64,000 nucleotides of DNA from Chitinophagales bacterium (lineage in GTDB: Bacteria; Bacteroidota; Bacteroidia; Chitinophagales; UBA10324), in assembly GCA_025056305.1 (NCBI GenBank), contig JANWWJ010000038.1, forward strand, positions 1 through 64,000, given 5' to 3'. The notes under the pieces are model-generated. The model saw only the letters and a list, made by a program, of their open reading frames with translations. It was not told where the DNA came from and did not search any database. The position numbers and the translations under genes were made by a program. This document shows positions 2,971 through 15,217 of the stretch, piece after piece. Each line of letters begins with the position of its first letter. Positions within the stretch are counted from its first letter, which is position 1.

Positions 2971-5900
2971 TTAACGTCGGATCAGCTTATGGGTGCTGGA
3001 ATGCTGTGTGCCGATGACATGGAGCAGGTAGGTGCCGGCATGTTGGAATAATTCCTCAGGTAAATAAAGTTGCGTCTGCCCGCCATCCACTGGACGCTTG
3101 CTGGTGTATAATAGCCTACCGGCTATGTCATAAAGCTGTATCTCCACAATTCCTGTAGCAGCACCAACCAAGGTAAGGGAGGGTGCAACGTAAAAAGGAT
3201 TCGGATATATGTACACCTCAAAGCCCGATGAATTGGCAAGGGTGTTAACAAACCGCACCGGTGAAAATTCAAAACTCTGATCTCTGTCCACCATACGCAA
3301 TCGGTAATAAACCCTTGGTACAGGCAATAACAATGCTTCCTCGTCGATATATGCATAACTCAGCGGCAAGACCGAATATCCTGCTGACTTTACGGTTGCG
3401 ATTGGAGCAAAGGTCAGACCATCCAGGCTTCGCTCGACGGCAAAAAAGTCGCTGTTCAACTCAGACGAGGTTTGCCAGCTTAGCAAAGCATGTTCGGAGT
3501 GCGGGGATACGCTAAAGGCACTTAATTCAACCGGTAGCGGGTAAGGTGAGAAGCCTATAGCCCAGTCAGAAAAGGAGGTGCAGCCAAAGCCACTGCGTTC
3601 CGCATGAACGGTACCTCCTATTTCCCATTGTGTTAAATTACTGTGGGTGCCACAATCTGTCCAAGGTGTATTGCAGGGATCGTAGCAATGATTTGCATTA
3701 CGTTTAATCACTGCATACTGCTGCGGGTTGGGCTGGCCGTTGGTATAGCCCCGCATGTTTAGGTAGGGATTGTAGCTCACCGCTGGATTAGTAACGATGT
3801 TAAACATACCATCGTAAGGGATTGCCGTCCACCAACCGGTGTTCAGCCGGTCCGTTATTGGCGACCCATTCACAACCACAGCATATGGCTCATTGGTATT
3901 CGAAGACGTGTTATCCACCGTGAAGTTTACGCGTAGGTTGTGGACGTTGCTATTGCTTTGAAAGTTGAATTCGATGAGCTGATAGCCTGCGGCAGATGCA
4001 GTTGAAGAAAATCCTACGGGAAAACTATAATGTCCCGTGCTGATGCGACGTCGGAAATAGCCATTAATCCACGAGTCAGCACTGCTGTTGGAGGCATCAA
4101 AGGTGATGCTACCGGGGACATTGTTTATCAAATACACCTCATTATTTGAGGTGTTTACCAGTCCTCGGATCAGATAGAGGTGGTTATTTACATGAATGTT
4201 GCAGCCCATGAGGCTTACGCCTTGTGCATTATTGATTTCAAGATTGTAGAAAAGTTCATGATTGCCCGTTCCGGTGACGGTAATGGTTTGGACTTGCGGT
4301 GTGGCATTGATGTCGCTGTTAAAGATCACACGACTGGTATGGGGGGTGAAACTTCCGGTGTTGTGGTTACGATACCAATCACCACCAATGATGAGGTTGC
4401 CCGAGGTAAAGGGTGGGAAAGTAGGTTGCAGGCTTCCGTTGATGATGGTCAGATCGTTGCGGACTGCATGATCTACGTTATCCATCAAGCGTACGTCGGT
4501 GTTAGCTGCATTTATTTCCACATCCCACGGAACGCCGGGCTGTGTAGCCAATGTGCCGGTTTCCCAAACTTGCTGCGTAGCGACAATTTCATATACAGTG
4601 CCGGTACTGAAAATAAGTTTAGAGCCGTTGGCGTAATAAGCTGCATTGCCAACCACGGCGCCGCCACCATTAATGCGCAAAATGTGTTGGATGGTGCCCA
4701 GGTTCCCCACGCCAAAATCTATTTCGCCACTGGTGACGCGTACTTCTGTATTAGCACCGAAAACGATACGCCCATTTCCACCTCCATCCACGATCAGAAC
4801 AGTCTTGTTATTGAGGGTGCTTCGTACATCTACTATTCCTCCGGCCACTGAAGAACTAATGGTCCTGGTGCCGTTTTTAACATTCAAATTCATGAACTTC
4901 ATCGCCGTACCCGGATAAGCCAAAGGCCCTTCCAGGTAGAGGATGCGGCCCTGAAGATCAATATCTCCATTGGTGATTTCCAGATAATCCCATCCATAAC
5001 CACAGGCTGCGGTCACCTGAATTTTCATGTCTGTGTTCGCACCTAACAACAGTTTTCGGCCCGGCTTGTCAATACGCACATAGCTAAATGTTTCTGTTCC
5101 ACCTCCGCTGACAGAAACCGTTTGATCGGCGGCGGCATTAGTAAAGAACACCGCACGACAGTTGTGAATGAAAACGCCGGAGGCCGCACTACGCGTCCAG
5201 TTTCCACCTATATACAAATCGCCTAACATGTTAAAGGTGCCGGAAGCGATGTGCAGATTTCCGGCCATCCCCCGCGCCGCAAGGGGCATGTTAACAGTCG
5301 TAGTGTTCTGTATGGTTACGTTATTGGGCGTTCCGTATCCTGCCGTTGTCGTATTGCCTGTCCATTCCTGAGACACTCCATAAGTCCCCCCCGTATTGTA
5401 AACCAGCGTAGATGAGGATCCATAGGTAACCGGATTGTTTACATAGCTGTTGGTGTTTAATTGCAGTTGCTTGTTGATGACAGGAGTGGTATTGATAAGC
5501 GCACCCACATTAAGCGTGAGGCGATTGAACGTAGTGGTGGAAGTTCCCGCAATGGTTACGGTGTAGGGAGGGCTACCCTGAAAGATAACCTCTTCGTTGT
5601 TGGTGCCGGCATTAAACGTTCCGTTATTAGTCCACGCTACATTGGTGCAGGTAGCATATATGTTCAAAATGCGGTTGTTGCTGATGGTAAGCGACGCTCC
5701 GGGATGAATGGTAAGCGAACGGCAATCGGCATTTGCTGTAGAAATGACCGGCATGAAAGGCGCCCCTGCTGCTATCACGACATTCGTTGAGGCCACCGGT
5801 ACCAGCCCGAAACTCCAATTCATTCCGTTGTGCCAATCGGAACTTACCCCACCCACCCACGTAGTGGTGGTGTTTACTTGGTCAGCACCTATATCAGGGG

Positions 5901-8187
5901 GGGATAAACGCGTTTCGCCGTCATAATCGATGGTTATGCTCGAAATTGCCGTGCCCGTGCTGATGAGGGCACAATTCAGGGGCGAAATGTGCAGGTCATT
6001 GCTCAGGTTGGTGAAGGTAGGTTGAATGTTTTTACTGTTGATGTCTTTGCCTGTACCTCCCTGCCACAGCGCAAGGGTGCTGTAATTGGTAGTACTTACT
6101 GATCCCAGAACAGTATTTGAAGAACTGATCCATAAGTTGTTATAATCCATAATCGATATATAACCCAGCTGCGTGGTGTTGGCTACATGTACGGCACGGT
6201 TTCTCGTGTTGTCAGCAGTAGTTCGATCATTATAAAAAATGTTATTCTGCACGTTATAGCTGGGGCTACCGTTTTGCACGTTTAAGGCGTAAGTATTGCT
6301 GGCCGATCCGGTAGCCGATCCGGTAACTACCAATGAGTTGAAATACAAATTGGGAATTCCGCCAAGAATTTCAATACCGCTAATGGTTGGATTATTGCTG
6401 AGACCACTACCCAACGTTATCATATTGTTAGAAATAGTTATCGTTCCTTGTTGAATACGTATGCCACTCAGCACTCCATTAGGCGAAGTGGCATTTACCG
6501 ACAGGCTATGGATAAGATTGCGGCTCACAGAATGACCACTTCCTGGCTGGTTGAGCAGAATTCCGTACACATGGCAATTGCCGGAACTGGAGTTCCGTAA
6601 ATTGAATATGCGGTTTTGGGTAATGTTATGCGCTACCGTGCCGGTGTTGTGTGCGTAAATGCCAATAGCAGATGCGGAAAGGTTTGTGCCTGTGTTTGCA
6701 CTGGTGTGATTGAAATTTTGAATGGTATTGGAGGAAACGGTAGCTGTACCGGCGCCCAGAAAAATACCGATCAGGTTGCCCCCGTTTTGATCAGAGGTGA
6801 TGTTGTTGGCATTGTCGTGGCCTATCTTATTGTTGGTAATGGTCATACTGCCTGTGGAGCCTGTCCGAATTCCGGCAAAAATCATGGTCTGATTTGTGCC
6901 TGACGCATGCTGCCTGATGTCGATGGCCCCAATGGTGTTGTTGCTGATGGTGCTGTTGCCCCCGCCAAATGTGACAATGCCTGCTACCGTGGGCACTGAA
7001 GCTGCTGTGATTTGCTTGCAGTGAACGGTGATGGCACCTGTTCCAGAGCTGGCACCGATGATATTGTTGGTGATGTTATACGAACCATTGCCAACGATGA
7101 TGCCGCAGAAAGCGAAGTCGTTCAGCCCACTGAATGAAGTAGGTGCTCGGGCTGAGTGCATGACTATTCCGGATATCGTATTTCCGGAAATGGTCGTCGT
7201 TGCGCCCGCAGTGCCTTGCTCTACGGCTATAGCTTCGAAAGTGGTGGCAAACGTGCCGCTGTTATCAACGGTTGTGGTTCCTGTACCTGAAGAATTTCCG
7301 TAGCCGATGATGTTGTTGCTTATGGTAAAGCCACCGGAGTTGACATCGGCACCGGTAACGAGCCGTATGGCGCGGTAAGCGCCCTGGCCTCCAACGGTAA
7401 ATGTACGAGTGGCTGATTGATAGATGCGATTATTCGTTATAGTCCATCCGGAATTATAACTGGAAATGTAAATGCCATTGGTGTTATTGCTGGAGCCCTG
7501 AGCCAAATGTCCGAAATCATGAATGAAATTATTATCGATTACTATGTTGTCGTTAGAGCGGCCGCTCGTACCAAAGGCCCGAATACAGATGTAAGGCAGG
7601 TTGCTGCCTGAGGGGCCAATGTCGCAATACGAAATCGTGTTGTTGTCATTTCCAGTAGAAACGTTTGAAGTGCTGAACAGGATAACTCCCCCATCGGTAC
7701 TGACACCTATGGTTCCTGTAGAGGAGCCTCGTATGGTGCATCGCGTTACCATATTGTTCGTGGCGTCATTTATAAATCGCAAAGTCACGGCCGATGCACT
7801 TGTATTTGGGCTTTCTAAAGTCAATGAGCTACCTCCGCTATTCAAACCGTCAATGGTAACGTTATCAGCACCGTTTAGATCTATTAGGGGGCTAATGGTT
7901 GCTGTGCCGGTAATGGTAGCTGCTACCCCATTAGCCGGCCGAATGAGCAAAGAAGTCCAAGCTCCCCCATTGAGTACGGCCGAAGCTGTTTCTGTAAAGC
8001 TGGAGTTTATGGTAACGGTGATGTTGGCTCCTGTTTGAGTGCCTGCGTTTATGGCATTAAAGGCGGCACTTAAAGTGGAATAGCCTCCGTTGCCGGAATT
8101 AGCACCGCTCACGGTAACATTTTGTGCCGGTAATAAGCCTGGAAGAGCGATGAGGAGTAGGGTAGTAAGGAACTGTTGTCGCCGCAT
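2971..8187 (-). CDS. Giant secreted beta-helix surface protein with T9SS sorting domain
   Basis: A 1738-residue protein with a Sec signal peptide (about residues 1-21, ending LPAQ). Residues of about 90-700 are full of short Asn/Ile/Gly repeats such as ITISNN and ITNNRI, typical of right-handed parallel beta-helices (NosD/pectate-lyase-like fold). A middle region starting near WVGGVSSDWHNGMNW resembles G8-type modules. Next come an fn3-like segment (LSAFSVSPHSEHALLSWQT) and a C-terminal T9SS type A domain (YIYPNPFYVAPSLTLVG ... GTYLLHVIG, last 85 residues or so). It should be exported and attached to the cell surface. No catalytic residues were recognised; adhesion or polysaccharide binding are guesses. 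It has its own promoter and is divergent from the alpha-glucan gene set. Confidence 0.88.
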   Translation of the reverse strand: MRRQQFLTTLLLIALPGLLPAQNVTVSGANSGNGGYSTLSAAFNAINAGTQTGANITVTINSSFTETASAVLNGGAWTSLLIRPANGVAATITGTATISPLIDLNGADNVTIDGLNSGGSSLTLESPNTSASAVTLRFINDATNNMVTRCTIRGSSTGTIGVSTDGGVILFSTSNVSTGNDNNTISYCDIGPSGSNLPYICIRAFGTSGRSNDNIVIDNNFIHDFGHLAQGSSNNTNGIYISSYNSGWTITNNRIYQSATRTFTVGGQGAYRAIRLVTGADVNSGGFTISNNIIGYGNSSGTGTTTVDNSGTFATTFEAIAVEQGTAGATTTISGNTISGIVMHSARAPTSFSGLNDFAFCGIIVGNGSYNITNNIIGASSGTGAITVHCKQITAASVPTVAGIVTFGGGNSTISNNTIGAIDIRQHASGTNQTMIFAGIRTGSTGSMTITNNKIGHDNANNITSDQNGGNLIGIFLGAGTATVSSNTIQNFNHTSANTGTNLSASAIGIYAHNTGTVAHNITQNRIFNLRNSSSGNCHVYGILLNQPGSGHSVSRNLIHSLSVNATSPNGVLSGIRIQQGTITISNNMITLGSGLSNNPTISGIEILGGIPNLYFNSLVVTGSATGSASNTYALNVQNGSPSYNVQNNIFYNDRTTADNTRNRAVHVANTTQLGYISIMDYNNLWISSSNTVLGSVSTTNYSTLALWQGGTGKDINSKNIQPTFTNLSNDLHISPLNCALISTGTAISSITIDYDGETRLSPPDIGADQVNTTTTWVGGVSSDWHNGMNWSFGLVPVASTNVVIAAGAPFMPVISTANADCRSLTIHPGASLTISNNRILNIYATCTNVAWTNNGTFNAGTNNEEVIFQGSPPYTVTIAGTSTTTFNRLTLNVGALINTTPVINKQLQLNTNSYVNNPVTYGSSSTLVYNTGGTYGVSQEWTGNTTTAGYGTPNNVTIQNTTTVNMPLAARGMAGNLHIASGTFNMLGDLYIGGNWTRSAASGVFIHNCRAVFFTNAAADQTVSVSGGGTETFSYVRIDKPGRKLLLGANTDMKIQVTAACGYGWDYLEITNGDIDLQGRILYLEGPLAYPGTAMKFMNLNVKNGTRTISSSVAGGIVDVRSTLNNKTVLIVDGGGNGRIVFGANTEVRVTSGEIDFGVGNLGTIQHILRINGGGAVVGNAAYYANGSKLIFSTGTVYEIVATQQVWETGTLATQPGVPWDVEINAANTDVRLMDNVDHAVRNDLTIINGSLQPTFPPFTSGNLIIGGDWYRNHNTGSFTPHTSRVIFNSDINATPQVQTITVTGTGNHELFYNLEINNAQGVSLMGCNIHVNNHLYLIRGLVNTSNNEVYLINNVPGSITFDASNSSADSWINGYFRRRISTGHYSFPVGFSSTASAAGYQLIEFNFQSNSNVHNLRVNFTVDNTSSNTNEPYAVVVNGSPITDRLNTGWWTAIPYDGMFNIVTNPAVSYNPYLNMRGYTNGQPNPQQYAVIKRNANHCYDPCNTPWTDCGTHSNLTQWEIGGTVHAERSGFGCTSFSDWAIGFSPYPLPVELSAFSVSPHSEHALLSWQTSSELNSDFFAVERSLDGLTFAPIATVKSAGYSVLPLSYAYIDEEALLLPVPRVYYRLRMVDRDQSFEFSPVRFVNTLANSSGFEVYIYPNPFYVAPSLTLVGAATGIVEIQLYDIAGRLLYTSKRPVDGGQTQLYLPEELFQHAGTYLLHVIGTQHSSTHKLIRR

Positions 8188-8395: not shown

Positions 8396-9157
8396 ATGAA
8401 AAAACCATTACTTGTGTTGTGTGCTGTACTGCTTACGAGTTGGTCCATAGCCCAAAATCTTACCATACGTTATGATGCCACCAAAGGCGTAAGCAGCTTA
8501 CAAGGAGAAACGAAAGTGTACATGCATTCAGGAGGAAGCGATGACGCCGGACCGTTGGACAATACGGCTTGGGAGTACGTTGTGGGCAATTGGGGCGCCG
8601 ATGATGGGGTGGGCTTAATGACCAACGTGGGTACCGACCTGTGGGAATTGAACATGCCTGATGCAGTGGCTTACTACAGCCAGGCCTCAAATGGTCCGGT
8701 ACTGGGAAATAAAATATATCGGTTAGGAATGGTTTTTCGTGATGCCGCAGGCAATAAAAGTGGTAAAGACAACAACAATGATGACATTTTCGCTGACCTA
8801 AGTGGGCCCACAGCAATGGTGTACAACAAAGATGGTACGCCATTCGACGGAGTGGTCATTACTATTAATAGTGGGATAGGCGATGTGAAGAACGCAACGT
8901 TCGAAAGTACGGTTTATCCGAACCCGCTGTCGAGCGCAGGCATGGTAGCATATACCCTCAATCAGCCGGCTGAACAGATCATCATACGCCTCTATGATGC
9001 CACTGGTCGGGTGATGGATGAATACGTTCAGGGGGCCCGGGGTTTAGGCACCTATTTGGTTCACTTTGATGCCACCCATCTGGCAGAAGGCGTTTACGCC
9101 TATCAAATAGCCGTAGATGGCCAGGTAAAGGGCGGCACGTTTGTTGTGGTCCGCTAA
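8396..9157 (+). CDS. T9SS-secreted protein made of the shared alpha-glucan-associated module alone
   Basis: 253 residues: a signal peptide (1-19, ending SIAQ), one module of about 115 residues (about 22-135) and a T9SS type A sorting domain (about 165-253, VYPNPLSSAG ... GVYAYQIAVDG). The module (YDATKG, VYMHSGG, WEYVVGNWG, YRLGMVFRDAAGNKSGKD, DDIFADL) recurs at the N-termini of the GH13 and GH31 enzymes encoded next. This points to a carbohydrate-binding or surface-docking role, with this copy acting as a free-standing surface binder; that is inference, and I do not recognise a named family. It has its own promoter and is followed by a strong terminator, so it can be expressed separately from the enzymes. 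Confidence 0.82.
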   Translation: MKKPLLVLCAVLLTSWSIAQNLTIRYDATKGVSSLQGETKVYMHSGGSDDAGPLDNTAWEYVVGNWGADDGVGLMTNVGTDLWELNMPDAVAYYSQASNGPVLGNKIYRLGMVFRDAAGNKSGKDNNNDDIFADLSGPTAMVYNKDGTPFDGVVITINSGIGDVKNATFESTVYPNPLSSAGMVAYTLNQPAEQIIIRLYDATGRVMDEYVQGARGLGTYLVHFDATHLAEGVYAYQIAVDGQVKGGTFVVVR

Positions 9158-9180
9158 TTCATTCTTACAAGTTTGGATAC

Positions 9181-9211
9181 AACTGCCCCGCCTTGGCGGG
9201 GCAGTTTTTTT
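9181..9211 (+). terminator. Rho-independent terminator
   Basis: A perfect 10-bp GC-rich stem, CTGCCCCGCC (9183-9192) with GGCGGGGCAG (9195-9204), then seven T residues (9205-9211). A preceding AA can extend the stem. It ends transcription 24 nt after the stop of the module-only gene. It is the only textbook intrinsic terminator I found in the window. Confidence 0.9.
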
Positions 9212-9230
9212 AAGGCTGCACTTCATCGGC

Positions 9231-9238
9231 TATCTTCG
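9231..9238 (+). promoter_or_regulatory. Candidate -7 box TATCTTCG for the amylase/glucosidase pair
   Basis: One base from TAnnTTTG, located after the terminator and 31 nt before the ATG at 9270, with TTTT 19 nt upstream. The same TAnnTTCG variant precedes the genes at 8396, 30200 and 43401. Confidence 0.4.
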
Positions 9239-9269
9239 CTGAGAACCCAAAAATTTTTCGCGCCTAAAC

Positions 9270-12101
9270 ATGCAAGTGCTTTCGCTGTTCGTCAGAACCG
9301 TTGTCGGTTTATTGTTTATTGCTTCAGAGCTTTATGCACAAGTCGTATGGACTTATCCTCATTTTCCTACGGTAAATTCCGCCGTAACTATTTTCTATGA
9401 TGCCTCAAAAGGTAATGGTGCGCTCAAAAACTTTACCGGAGACATCTACATCCACACAGGGGTGATTACCAATCAGAGCTCTAGCCCCACTGATTGGAAG
9501 CATGTAGTGACCACATGGGGTGTAGCTAATGCGGCATGGAAAATGACGCCGTTGGGCAACAATCTTTATGCTTATCATATTTCAAACATTACTACATTCT
9601 ATAATATATCTGCCAATGAAACAGTATTGAAATTGGCTATGGTATTTCGGAATGCCAACGGCACCGTTGTGGGCCGTGATACCGATGGTTCCGATTTGTT
9701 TGCCGACGTTTGGGATGGGGTCAGTCAGCAAGTACGTATGCTCAGGCCGGCAGAGTCGCCAACGTTCGTGTCGCTGAGCGATGTGGTGGAAGTGACTTGT
9801 GTCTCTTCGTTACCAGGTACCCTTACCATTTTTCACAATGGCATTTGGTTTTATCAGCAGTCTAACACGGATTCAATCACAGCTTTTATAGTGGCCACCT
9901 CTTATGGGGCAAGTTGGTTGAAGGTGACGGCAGGTACTGCGGCTGATTCGGCATACTACGTAGTCAACCCTCCATTAACCTTAGCTCCTCTTCCCCAGGG
10001 TGCCGACGACGGTATCACCTTCGTCAACGATAGTACTGCCACCTTGGTTCTGCCGGCACCAGGCAAGCAGTTTATTTATGTTGTGGGCGATTTCTCCGAC
10101 TGGCTGGTCGACTCCGACTTTTACATGAAACGGACTCCCGATGGCACACGCTGGTGGATCACCATAAGCGGGCTACAGCCTTTGAAAGAATATCGGTATC
10201 AGTTCTGGGTTGACGGTCACTTGCGCGTGGCCGACCCCTATTGTCGGAAAATTTTGGATCCTTACCACGACAAGTATATTCCGGCGGCTACCTATCCGAA
10301 TTTATTGCCATATCCTACGGGTAAAACATCAGGAATAGTATCGGTATTGCAGACGGGAAAGCCTCCATACAATTGGCAAGTGCCCAACTTTCCAAAGCCC
10401 AATCCGGACAATCTGGTCATTTATGAACTGCTGGTACGCGATTTCATTGCAGCCCGTAACTGGAAAACACTGAAAGACACGTTAAACTACCTTAAAACAC
10501 TTGGCGTCACGGCTATTGAACTCATGCCCTTTAACGAATTTGAAGGGAACGACTCATGGGGCTACAACCCCTCGTTCTATTTTGCCCCGGACAAGTACTA
10601 TGGCCCTGCTGACGATCTGAAGGCCTTTATTGATGCTTGTCATCAGATGGGCATTGCTGTGATTCAGGATATTGCGCTGAATCACTGCTTTAGCCAGTCG
10701 CCTCATTGTCAATTGTACTGGGATGCGGCCAACTTCTGGCCTTCGGCTGACAACATCTGGTTAAATACCGATTGTGACCCGGCTACTCCGGGCTATCAGG
10801 GTAAACATCCATTCGGTGTGGGCTACGATTTCAATCATGAAAGTCCGTACACGCAAAAACTGGTTGATGATGTGCTGCGGTATTGGGTTACCGAATTCAA
10901 AATTGATGGCTTTCGCTTTGACTTATCTAAGGGTTTCACGCAAACTTATTCCGGGAGCAATGTAGGCCTATGGGGTCAGTACGACCAGAGCCGCATCAAT
11001 CTTTTAAAAAGAATGGCCGATCAGATTCGTGCCGTAGATCCTGACGTCATATTGATTCTGGAACATTTCGCCGACAACAGTGAAGAAAAGGTGCTCAGTG
11101 ACTACGGCTTCTATCTATGGGGTAATCTCAATTATGCCTATGCCCAAAGTGCCATGGGCTATTCTTCCGGCGCAGACATCAGCTGGATCAATTACCACAA
11201 TCGCGGTTGGAGTGATCCGCATGTGGTGGGCTACATGGAAAGTCATGACGAAGAGCGATTGATGTACAAAACGATTACTTATGGAAACAGTCAGCCTAAC
11301 TACAGTGTCAAGCCATTGGATTCGGCGCTGAATCGTATGAAGCTGGCTTCTTTGCTCTTTATTCTGGTGCCCGGACCCAAGATGATCTGGCAGTTCGGGG
11401 AGCTGGGTTATGATTATTCGATCAATTATGGTGGCAGCAATGTGACGGCTAAGCCCATCCGATGGGACTATTTTCAATATAATCCGCGGCGTTGGTTATA
11501 TTATTTCTATAAAGCATTAATTGATTTCAAGAACACGCATGCGGTAGCTACGACGAAACAGTTCAGTCTGGTGGGGGGAGGACTTAAAAAAAATCTGCGC
11601 CTCTATTCCGATACCCTCAATGTGGTCATATTAGGAAACTTTGATATATATGATGGAAGTCAGTATCCTTACTTTCCTCATACGGGTTGGTGGTATGAAT
11701 ATTTGACGGGTGATTCGCTATACGTGACCGATGTCAATGCTCAGCTTTTTTTGAAGGCCGGTGCTTACCGCTTTTATACCGATAAAAAACTGTCGAAACC
11801 TTACTTGGGCAATGTAGGGATTGAAGCAACCCATCTGCCGCCTGCGCCGGTGCTTGAAATATTTCCTAATCCCGCATCTCAAGCGGTGGTGGCGGATTTT
11901 TATGTGCCGGCAGCCGGTCCGGTGATGCTGGTCCTGTACGATGCACACGGTAGGTTGATCCGTCCGCTTGATCAAAATACGCGGCCTCAAGGCTGGTACA
12001 CGCTCACCGTGCCCCTCAGTGGCTTGAGCTCTGGTATCTATGAGCTCGTATTCTTTTGCGCAGGACAGCGGATTGTTCAAAAACTTATTGTAAACCATTA
12101 A
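9270..12101 (+). CDS. T9SS-secreted GH13 alpha-amylase/pullulanase-like enzyme
   Basis: 943 residues. A signal peptide (1-23) precedes the shared module (about 39-150), a linker/Ig-like region and a CBM48-like segment (about 265-360, FIYVVGDFSDWLVDS). The GH13 barrel (about 390-780) shows region I DIALNH, nucleophile D551 in GFRFDLSKGF, acid/base E598 in ILILEHF and H659-D660 in ESHDEERL. A C-terminal T9SS domain follows (IFPNPASQAVVADF ... GIYELVFFCAG). It should hydrolyse alpha-1,4 and/or alpha-1,6 glucosidic bonds of starch or glycogen at the cell surface. The CBM48-before-barrel order is like pullulanases and branching enzymes, but specificity cannot be read from motifs. The GH31 gene follows 17 bp downstream, probably in one operon. 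Confidence 0.9.
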   Translation: MQVLSLFVRTVVGLLFIASELYAQVVWTYPHFPTVNSAVTIFYDASKGNGALKNFTGDIYIHTGVITNQSSSPTDWKHVVTTWGVANAAWKMTPLGNNLYAYHISNITTFYNISANETVLKLAMVFRNANGTVVGRDTDGSDLFADVWDGVSQQVRMLRPAESPTFVSLSDVVEVTCVSSLPGTLTIFHNGIWFYQQSNTDSITAFIVATSYGASWLKVTAGTAADSAYYVVNPPLTLAPLPQGADDGITFVNDSTATLVLPAPGKQFIYVVGDFSDWLVDSDFYMKRTPDGTRWWITISGLQPLKEYRYQFWVDGHLRVADPYCRKILDPYHDKYIPAATYPNLLPYPTGKTSGIVSVLQTGKPPYNWQVPNFPKPNPDNLVIYELLVRDFIAARNWKTLKDTLNYLKTLGVTAIELMPFNEFEGNDSWGYNPSFYFAPDKYYGPADDLKAFIDACHQMGIAVIQDIALNHCFSQSPHCQLYWDAANFWPSADNIWLNTDCDPATPGYQGKHPFGVGYDFNHESPYTQKLVDDVLRYWVTEFKIDGFRFDLSKGFTQTYSGSNVGLWGQYDQSRINLLKRMADQIRAVDPDVILILEHFADNSEEKVLSDYGFYLWGNLNYAYAQSAMGYSSGADISWINYHNRGWSDPHVVGYMESHDEERLMYKTITYGNSQPNYSVKPLDSALNRMKLASLLFILVPGPKMIWQFGELGYDYSINYGGSNVTAKPIRWDYFQYNPRRWLYYFYKALIDFKNTHAVATTKQFSLVGGGLKKNLRLYSDTLNVVILGNFDIYDGSQYPYFPHTGWWYEYLTGDSLYVTDVNAQLFLKAGAYRFYTDKKLSKPYLGNVGIEATHLPPAPVLEIFPNPASQAVVADFYVPAAGPVMLVLYDAHGRLIRPLDQNTRPQGWYTLTVPLSGLSSGIYELVFFCAGQRIVQKLIVNH

Positions 12102-12118
12102 CATTCATTTTTTCGGTA

Positions 12119-15100
12119 ATGTATGTAAAAGCATATTTTCTGGATCTACCAAAGGTGGCTGGCTTTTGTTTGCTTCTGACGCAACCCTTATGTGCGCAGA
12201 TCTTAGCGGTAACGCCGACCTTTCCCACTACTGAAGATACGGTAACCATCATCTATAATGCCAAGCTGGGTAACGGGGGGTTGGCCGGCTATACGGGTGA
12301 TGTATATGCACATACCGGCGTCATTACAGATGCAAGTCAACACCCATCGGACTGGAAACATGTGGTGGCGCCTTGGGGCAGTACCGATCCAAAAGTGCTC
12401 ATGGAAAGCTTGGGTGGTGATCTATACCGGATCCGATTTCACATTCGATCTTATTACGGTATAGGTCCAGAAGAGAAAGTCTGCTCTTTGGCCTTTGTTT
12501 TTCGCAATGCCAGCGGCAGCCTATCGGGGCGCGAAGCTGATGGTTCGGATATCTTTTATCCGGTTAACCGCATGCCTTTAGGTAATATGCTCTCATACAC
12601 GCTGGTTAACCATGATTTGGTTGTGAGCGCTGAGTATGGTATGGTGCGCATCAGGTTGTACGATACACACGTGGCATGTGTGGAATTAGAGGCCGACACC
12701 TTGGCTTTTCCCGATACTTCCTTGTCGGTAGTGCAGCCGGCGCAGCAGCTCGCCTATGTGCTCACTGCCGGTGCTGACTATCTGAAGATTTCGGGGCCTG
12801 CCCTTGAAATAGTGGTTTATAAGACACCAGTTCGCCTGGCCTTTTTGCTTGACGGGGATACTTTACTTAGCGACGCTTCGGGATTGATGACTTTATGTTC
12901 CGGTACCAGTGTACACTTTAAATTGGGCAGCAAGGAATACCTGTACGGGACGGGTTCTCGTGCTCTGGATTTGAATCATCGTGGACGCAAATTTGTTTCC
13001 TACAACACCCCTGTTTACGCTTACGAAGCAGGAGCGCCCACCTTGAACATCAGTATTCCGTTTTTGTTATCGAGCAAGGGCTATGGATTGTTTGTGGATA
13101 ATTTCTCGCCGGGCATATGGGATTTGGGTTATACCGATTCAACGGTGTTGAGTTACACGGCTGAAAGCGGAGTGTTTCGCTATTTTTTGATTGCGGGTCC
13201 AGGCTGGCCAGACATTTTGGACCGGTACACATCGCTGACAGGCAAGCAACCGCTGCCACCCCGTTGGGCCCTAGGGTATTTTCAGTCGCGGTACGGCTAC
13301 CAAAACGAGTCGGAAGCTCGAAGCGTTGTAAAACAACTGCGTGATGCCCAGTTTCCGCTGGATGCCTTGGTGCTGGACCTTTATTGGTTTGGCATGCCGT
13401 ACAATATGGGAAATCTCTCATGGGATATTACCCGATTCCCCAAAGCCGCTGATATGATGCATGATTTTGATTCTATGGGAGTAAAAACCGTATTGATCAC
13501 CGAGCCATACATTACAAAGATTTCAAATAACTATAATCATGTAAGTAGTCAGGGCTTCTTGGCTACCACAGCGCAGGGGCAACCATACCTATTAAGCAAT
13601 TTTTGGGCGGGTGAGGCAGGCCTGCTCGATATCTTCAAACCGGCCGCTCAGGATTGGTTTTGGAATCAGTATCACGCACGGATTACTGAAGGGGTGGGAG
13701 GTTGGTGGTGTGATCTGGGAGAACCGGAGCTTCATCCGGCCGACATGGTGCACAGCATTGGGCCGGCTCGCCTGGTCCATAATGTGTATTCGCTGGTATG
13801 GGCTGAATTATTGTACCGTCGGTACCGGCAACAGGTGCCCCAGCAGCGGTTATTCAACCTGATCCGCTCAGGATATGCCGGCATGCAACGCTACAGTACT
13901 TTCCCATGGTCAGGCGACGTGCGCCGTAGCTGGAGTGGGCTGCAAGCACAAATCCCCATTATGCTCAGCATGGGTTTATGCGGCGTAGGTTACATGCACA
14001 GCGATATCGGGGGCTTTACCGGTGGGCCCCAGAACGAAGAGCTGTACATCCGGTGGCAGCAGCTCGGGGCTTTTTCACCCGTAGCGCGCGCTCACGGGGA
14101 AGGGGTACCTACCGAGCCTACTGCCTACAGCAGCAGTGCCCAAAACACCGTTCGGAAATACCTGCAACTGCGCTATCAGCTTACGCCTTACAACTATACG
14201 CTGGCTTTTGAAAACAGTTCGAAAGGCTGGCCCCTGATGCGACCGCTCAACTTCTACAACGCCACAGATGAAGATTTTGCTAATACCAATGATGCTTTTT
14301 TATGGGGCGCTGACCTGCTGGTGGCGCCGGTATTACACCAAGGGGCAGTTTCCCGTTCGGTGAGCTTTCCTCAAGGGACATGGCTTTCGTGGGAAAATCC
14401 AAACTATAGTTACACCGGCGGAAGCACGGTAACCGTATCGGCGCCACTGAGCCAATTGCCACTATTTGTTCGGGCAGGTAGCTTTATTACCATGGCTCCC
14501 CCGATATTTTCGTTGCAGCATTACAATACCGATACCCTCATCGTCCGGTATTTTCCTGATGTCACCGTACCAAGCAGTACTGGATATGTCTATGACGACG
14601 ATGGGTTAACACCTACTGCGCTCAGCGACAGCACCTTTGAAATCATCAGCTACCAGGGCTCTGTTTCAGACAGCTACGTAGAGGTGCATTTGTCGCTCAG
14701 TGGCGATTATCCAGGTTCCCCTGCTTTTCGGCTCATGCAGTTTCAGCTGTATCGGATCGCAGCTTCCCCACAGAACGTGTATAAAGGGGCAAATCTGCTT
14801 CCGGAATTTTCATCGTGGTCGGTTTTTCAACAAGCCGACTCGGGTTGGTACTACGATGCTTCGGCCAAGGTGGTGTACACCAAGTTTTATTGGACAGGCG
14901 ATGCAACCGTAGTGCGTTGGGAAGGAACCATCATTATCGGCGTGGCTGACGCTGCAGCGCCTGCCGAATATCTTAAAGTTTTTCCTAATCCGTTTCGCTT
15001 CACAGTTACCATCGAAGCACCTGAGCTTACCGATGAAGAAGTGGGTATCTACAATGTACACGGCACTTGTGTGCGCCGGTTAGCCGCAAAAGGGGGTGAA

Positions 15101-15217
15101 GGACATTGGATATGGGATGGCAGCGATGAACACGGTAATAGGTTGGCGACAGGAGCCTATTTGGCTGTAGTGCGCAGTGCTGGGCGCACTTACCGACAAC
15201 TTCTTGTATTGCAATAG
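12119..15217 (+). CDS. T9SS-secreted GH31 alpha-glucosidase
   Basis: 1032 residues from the ATG at 12119 (MYVKAYFLDLPKVAG), chosen because it gives a signal peptide ending LCAQ; longer readings overlap the amylase stop. The shared module covers about 41-150, followed by a GH31 N-terminal beta-domain and the barrel, with nucleophile D532 in WWCDLGEPE and acid/base D600 in FPWSGDVRR. The substrate-site sequence HSDIGGFTGGPQNEELYIRW is also present. The C-terminus has a VFPNPFRFTVTIEAP start and FlgD/T9SS-like strands. It should release glucose from the non-reducing ends of oligosaccharides made by the preceding amylase. The stop lies 4 nt from the stop of the convergent yitT-type gene. GH31 also includes alpha-xylosidases, which is worth noting next to a xylH-like transporter. 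Confidence 0.9.
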   Translation: MYVKAYFLDLPKVAGFCLLLTQPLCAQILAVTPTFPTTEDTVTIIYNAKLGNGGLAGYTGDVYAHTGVITDASQHPSDWKHVVAPWGSTDPKVLMESLGGDLYRIRFHIRSYYGIGPEEKVCSLAFVFRNASGSLSGREADGSDIFYPVNRMPLGNMLSYTLVNHDLVVSAEYGMVRIRLYDTHVACVELEADTLAFPDTSLSVVQPAQQLAYVLTAGADYLKISGPALEIVVYKTPVRLAFLLDGDTLLSDASGLMTLCSGTSVHFKLGSKEYLYGTGSRALDLNHRGRKFVSYNTPVYAYEAGAPTLNISIPFLLSSKGYGLFVDNFSPGIWDLGYTDSTVLSYTAESGVFRYFLIAGPGWPDILDRYTSLTGKQPLPPRWALGYFQSRYGYQNESEARSVVKQLRDAQFPLDALVLDLYWFGMPYNMGNLSWDITRFPKAADMMHDFDSMGVKTVLITEPYITKISNNYNHVSSQGFLATTAQGQPYLLSNFWAGEAGLLDIFKPAAQDWFWNQYHARITEGVGGWWCDLGEPELHPADMVHSIGPARLVHNVYSLVWAELLYRRYRQQVPQQRLFNLIRSGYAGMQRYSTFPWSGDVRRSWSGLQAQIPIMLSMGLCGVGYMHSDIGGFTGGPQNEELYIRWQQLGAFSPVARAHGEGVPTEPTAYSSSAQNTVRKYLQLRYQLTPYNYTLAFENSSKGWPLMRPLNFYNATDEDFANTNDAFLWGADLLVAPVLHQGAVSRSVSFPQGTWLSWENPNYSYTGGSTVTVSAPLSQLPLFVRAGSFITMAPPIFSLQHYNTDTLIVRYFPDVTVPSSTGYVYDDDGLTPTALSDSTFEIISYQGSVSDSYVEVHLSLSGDYPGSPAFRLMQFQLYRIAASPQNVYKGANLLPEFSSWSVFQQADSGWYYDASAKVVYTKFYWTGDATVVRWEGTIIIGVADAAAPAEYLKVFPNPFRFTVTIEAPELTDEEVGIYNVHGTCVRRLAAKGGEGHWIWDGSDEHGNRLATGAYLAVVRSAGRTYRQLLVLQ

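Follow-up and report, generated by a model that had tools for sequence, protein, structure and literature searches.

We analysed a 64,000-nucleotide stretch of contig JANWWJ010000038.1 from a Chitinophagales bacterium (assembly GCA_025056305.1, positions 1 to 64,000; hereafter the window), in which three consecutive genes on the forward strand encode secreted proteins that share a module of about 115 residues at the mature N-terminus. The first, which we term the solo protein, consists of this module and a sorting domain of the type IX secretion system (T9SS), the second and the third carry catalytic parts of glycoside hydrolase families 13 and 31 (GH13 and GH31), respectively. The module is homologous, in sequence as well as in fold, to carbohydrate-binding module family 98 (CBM98), and the solo protein is probably a T9SS-displayed, SusE/F-like starch-capture protein that serves surface enzymes.

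The three genes and their shared module

The solo gene (8396-9157, + strand) encodes 253 amino acids (aa), i.e. a signal peptide, one CBM98-like module and a T9SS type A sorting domain. It is followed by the gene of a GH13_47-type alpha-amylase (9270-12101, +; 943 aa), made up of a CBM98-like module, an extra segment of ~90 aa, a CBM48-like domain, the GH13 part and a T9SS sorting domain, and by the GH31 gene (12119-15217, +, start approximate; 1032 aa), which encodes a CBM98-like module, the GH31 part and a T9SS-like tail. The three modules lie at 8450-8815, 9363-9710 and 12221-12565 (all +), the amylase copy being placed by profile and alignment searches. Their pairwise identities are 38% between the solo and GH13 copies (40/106), 42% between the solo and GH31 copies (43/102) and 50% between the two enzymes (58/115), with Z scores of 27, 23 and 61, respectively, against 500 shuffles. 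A search with the solo copy through the complete genome (2.4 Mb) recovered both enzyme-borne copies (E=5e-14 and 1.5e-11), and neither this nor an alignment search gave a fourth, i.e. the genome contains exactly three copies. An earlier note, made from the letters of this DNA alone, had described three consecutive T9SS-secreted proteins that start with the same module, the first adding only a sorting signal, the others GH13 and GH31. The identities and Z scores bear out the shared module, and the architectures agree with Pfam for the enzymes and with NCBIfam and Pfam for the sorting domains, the GH31 tail falling just below the cut-off.

The open reading frame (ORF) of the GH31 gene, taken from its first start codon (TTG at 12056), runs into the GH13 gene. 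The likely translation start is the ATG at 12119, which gives 1032 aa as compared to 1031 aa for the protein of a sister species. Since this ATG lies 17 bp past the GH13 stop codon, the GH13 and GH31 genes look like one operon.

Homology of the module to CBM98

A search of the PDB with the solo protein as a single sequence returned nothing at E up to 10, so that a profile was required. The profile built from 28 module sequences matched residues 37-130 of BoGH13A_Sus from Bacteroides ovatus (the N-terminus of 8DGE/8DL1) at E=3e-9 and had no other significant match. The AlphaFold models point to the same domain: the solo model (pLDDT 80.7) has the N-terminal domain of BoGH13A_Sus as its top PDB match (Z 10.2, root-mean-square deviation 2.9 over 107 residues), and the model of the GH31 copy (pLDDT 90.5) matches residues 55-167 of the same protein (Z 13.9, deviation 1.9 over 106), the next-best matches of both models being at Z ~6-7 (CBM25, CBM26, AMPK and isoamylase modules). 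The N-terminal domain of BoGH13A_Sus is the maltooligosaccharide-binding CBM98, and it is followed by a CBM48 that does not bind (PMC11633381). The module is thus a CBM98 homologue. The earlier note had named a match to a known carbohydrate-binding module among the findings that would refute its reading, and such a match is what we find; a new domain family is ruled out by sequence and fold alike.

Of the checks that the note had proposed, the structure prediction clearly favours CBM98; in the profile searches, the match of the 28-sequence profile is significant and that of Pfam stays below its cut-off. The Pfam family concerned is DUF4961 (PF16328), with 20.9 and 25.2 bits against a gathering cut-off of 27.1; the C-terminal third of the model alone aligns, and the solo protein has no match to it. 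The last ~100 positions of the DUF4961 model span the module. A full-length DUF4961 is a protein of ~300 aa, seen in a SusCD-GH92 locus, whereas the copies in the window are without the first two thirds. We found no mention of DUF4961 in the literature searched. CBM25 and CBM26 have the general beta-sandwich in common with the module (Z ~6), with no significant sequence match. It is suggestive only that the conserved His and Trp residues of the module recall H26, W34 and W74, through which, among others, CBM25 contacts maltotetraose (PMC4625611).

Conservation and subtypes of the module

The solo protein is no artefact and is conserved. A sister species, represented by a Chitinophagales metagenome-assembled genome (MAG), has the three genes in identical order with 83%, 81.5% and 72.5% identity, and the solo genes of the two species differ by 114 synonymous and 43 non-synonymous codon changes, which indicates purifying selection. 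In a genome survey of module-only neighbours, as suggested in the earlier note, 15 genomes of the order proved to have a solo gene. In nine of them, from six families (G000, G001, G062, G050, G042, G152, G118, G283 and G023), this gene directly precedes a CBM98-GH13 gene of the same orientation; in G002 the neighbourhood is cut by the contig end. A GH13_47-type enzyme is present in 14 of the 15 solo-bearing genomes, the exception being a genome that is 83% complete. The count of conserved residues covered 14 solo rows of the alignment and left aside three on long branches (G023, G697 and the DUF4961 protein of G492). In these 14 rows the His of the VYxHxG motif and the second Trp are invariant (14/14 each), and the first Trp is kept in 13/14, with one Phe. 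The solo protein of G023 has diverged and lost the His/Trp signature.

The module as such is widespread. It is present in 153 of 298 genomes sampled from the order (E up to 1e-3), and the solo-type profile detects modules in 117 of 395 genomes sampled phylum-wide (E up to 1e-6). Most of the copies listed are on proteins of 900-1070 aa, as judged by open-frame length, and most of the extracted copies sit on GH13 proteins; a single-protein scan of the genome contigs gave five loci. In a tree of 129 modules the type found at the N-terminus of amylases is apart from a second type, which consists of solo proteins, multi-module proteins and the C-terminal modules of some amylases. The modules borne by GH31 proteins nest inside the amylase type, where the starred branches force at least three changes. 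Note that few columns underlie the tree and many of its forks are open, hence the number of origins of the solo protein is unsure, with starred branches forcing at least two changes.

Predicted surface sorting and transcription units

The sorting domains of the solo protein (8912-9145, +; TIGR04183 over residues 173-250, 29.3 bits) and of the amylase (11859-12095, +; residues 864-942, 27.1 bits) exceed the cut-off of 23 bits, whereas the tail of the GH31 protein (14978-15208, +) reaches 20.0 bits and is a probable sorting domain. SprA is among the proteins encoded, which makes the presence of a T9SS very likely. Judged by these scores, the solo and GH13 proteins qualify as predicted T9SS type A cargo, and the GH31 protein is probable cargo with a tail below the cut-off.

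SusE and SusF are non-catalytic surface proteins with a starch-binding module, encoded beside amylase genes. Members of this type are lipoproteins within a SusCD locus; the solo protein has a T9SS sorting domain and there is no SusD on its contig, so that we liken it to them in its presumed mode of action and do not count it as a member. It differs from them in its single CBM98 module, in T9SS sorting rather than a lipid anchor, and in having no adjoining SusCD.

A strong intrinsic terminator (9181-9206, +; an 11-bp stem with a T run) lies between the solo and GH13 genes. As this hairpin ends the solo gene, the latter is probably a unit separate from the GH13-GH31 pair. Similar hairpins follow the solo genes of G001, G062, G042, G086, G002 and G027, as detected by a script, and of G050, G018 and G038, as seen by eye; the script found none 3' of the solo genes in G023, G152, G283 and G118. 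The Bacteroidota-type promoter pattern had one match in the window, which is below chance and outside this region, and sigma-70-like sites were fewer than in shuffled sequence; no promoter is claimed.

The two enzymes and the Sus genes of the genome

The CBM48-like and GH13 catalytic parts of the amylase (9996-11789, +) are covered by PDB matches over residues ~240-840, i.e. 8xx9 (E=4e-187) and 8dge (E=2e-111), and contain the catalytic motifs GFRFD (547), ILEHF (596) and MESHDE (656). The two structures are far ahead of all other GH13s, the following match being at 6e-21, and the protein therefore belongs with GH13_47; its layout, as read from the sequence, is CBM98-CBM48-GH13_47. Two GH13_47 members named in PMC11239784 tolerate alpha-1,6 linkages. 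The closest known counterpart is BoGH13A_Sus/BoSusG of Bacteroides ovatus (PDB 8DGE, 8DL1, 8DL2), which has the fold and sequence of the module and the same domain order. However, BoSusG is a lipoprotein within the sus locus, whereas the proteins described here have T9SS sorting domains and are outside a SusCD locus, and the module is here also free-standing and on a GH31. The segment of ~90 residues between CBM98 and CBM48 (9711-9989) is possibly immunoglobulin-like; the gap between the matched regions of BoGH13A_Sus is ~20 residues.

The catalytic region of the GH31 protein (12596-14755, +) is recognised by Pfam GH31 domains and the motifs WWCDLGEPE and FPWSGD. The nearest solved structure to it is Agd31B, the GH31 4-alpha-glucosyltransferase of Cellvibrio japonicus (E=1.6e-174, next 5e-104), from which the protein differs by its fusion to a CBM98-like module and a T9SS-like tail. 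It is a predicted hydrolase or transferase.

The earlier note had found no SusC/SusD nearby. This is true of the contig of the window (C38), which has no SusD and no SusC/SusD pair, the nearest TonB-receptor plug domain being ~16 kb off without a SusD partner, but it is not true of the genome. Contig C21 (G000; L160, L161) carries in a row SusC, SusD and a GH13 with a SusG-type C-terminal domain, and this operon adjoins a module-free GH31 and a further secreted GH13; the other GH13s of the genome include a cyclomaltodextrinase-like enzyme. The most plausible reading of the set in the window is thus an outer layer, displayed by the T9SS, of an alpha-glucan system that extends beyond it.

Proposed function and alternatives

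We propose that the products of the three genes, secreted by the type IX system, form a set for alpha-glucans at the cell surface, with CBM98 as its common element. The solo protein would be a small, non-enzymatic binder of starch or maltodextrin, held at the surface via its sorting domain, that raises the local alpha-glucan concentration around the two surface enzymes. The CBM98-CBM48-GH13_47 amylase would cut starch or glycogen and probably tolerate alpha-1,6 branches, the CBM98-GH31 enzyme would trim or rearrange the maltooligosaccharides released, and the products would be imported, probably through the SusC/SusD pair of contig C21. With the solo gene as a terminator-ended unit of its own, binder and enzymes could be made in different amounts. 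The earlier note had suggested either docking or substrate capture. Capture by the solo module is the likely part of this suggestion, given the CBM98 homology, the kept His and Trp residues and the solo genes found beside this type of amylase in six families, whereas docking gained no supporting feature.

There are points that weigh against a role in starch capture. A profile built from solo proteins only matches CBM98 weakly (E=0.009), and the solo module is a second subtype, 38-42% identical to the enzyme copies, so its ligand could differ. Moreover, in five genomes (G018, G038, G027, G086 and G162) the solo gene is not beside an amylase, and a DUF4961 protein of G492 has a related C-terminal module in a SusCD locus with GH92 (alpha-mannosidase-type), which means that the module fold family is not confined to alpha-glucan loci. 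The last two points, together with the separate subtype and the separate transcription unit, would also fit the explanation that the solo gene stands beside the amylase through shared ancestry and not through shared function. We consider this unlikely, since the solo protein and GH13_47 co-occur in 14 of 15 genomes and adjoin in six families, and since the His/Trp signature is retained. A second alternative is that the modules bind each other, the solo protein being a docking or assembly partner that gathers the two enzymes into a complex. One module type on three neighbouring surface proteins would suit such a complex, and the multi-module PKD/SprB proteins (740-1700 aa) of G024, G118 and G162 look scaffold-like. 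However, the top structural match is a carbohydrate-binding module, the conserved His and two Trp are typical of sugar platforms, no cohesin- or dockerin-like feature or module-module partner was found, and in most genomes the module is on a single GH13 without any partner to dock, all of which makes docking quite improbable. Finally, the solo gene is short, immediately precedes the gene of a complete enzyme with a homologous module and has one degenerate relative (G023), which would suit a duplicated amylase gene in decay. Its ORF is, however, intact with signal peptide, sorting domain and terminator, and we reject this highly improbable idea on purifying selection and on conservation, i.e. 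on the 15 genomes of the order that have solo proteins and on the subtype of their own that these form in the tree.

Other architectures of the module

T9SS proteins of ~740-1700 aa with 2-4 CBM98-like modules and PKD or SprB repeats are encoded at L053 (G024), L133 (5802-10313; G118) and L134 (8309-10750; G162), and in two of these genomes they adjoin solo modules. They are possibly multivalent starch-binding surface proteins. If the solo protein is a starch-capture protein as proposed above, these bacteria would have in it a starch receptor that is not a lipoprotein and has no link to SusCD; we give about even chances to the broader view that T9SS-displayed solo CBM98 proteins and the multi-CBM98 PKD/SprB proteins of related genera make up an unreported, SusCD-independent class of SusE/F-like surface starch receptors in Bacteroidota, expressed apart from the amylase. 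The CBM98 domain is already known, and a solo T9SS-sorted CBM98 is novel as a modest variation on known systems. What is gained is that a module whose role was so far obscure in many environmental Bacteroidota is now tied to CBM98, which had been characterised in one gut enzyme, and that CBM98 is seen free-standing, on a GH31 and in arrays.

The DUF4961 protein of G492 (L138, 7833-8771) is full-length, with a CBM98-like C-terminal domain, and is encoded inside the SusC-SusD-GH92 locus; DUF4961 may thus be a surface glycan-binding family beyond starch. Starch binding by the solo protein, if true, would also give a likely role to the last third of this Pfam family.

Several amylases have unusual arrangements. 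A 1395-aa protein (L063, 6415-10599; G273) is a fusion of FG-GAP and ASPIC/UnbV repeats with CBM98-GH13 and a sorting domain. Three others (L067, 7022-10738; L068, 7394-11011; L142, 4262-7870) carry one N-terminal and two C-terminal CBM98-like modules, the latter being similar to the solo subtype. L067 comes under the name Thalassovita sp. (Pseudomonadota), probably a wrong label for a Bacteroidota MAG. Within the window, a 1738-aa protein encoded at 2971-8187 (-) has repeated Asn/Thr-rich segments, for which Pfam gives a weak T9SS sorting tail and nothing more; the sister species has a gene of similar size at the matching position.

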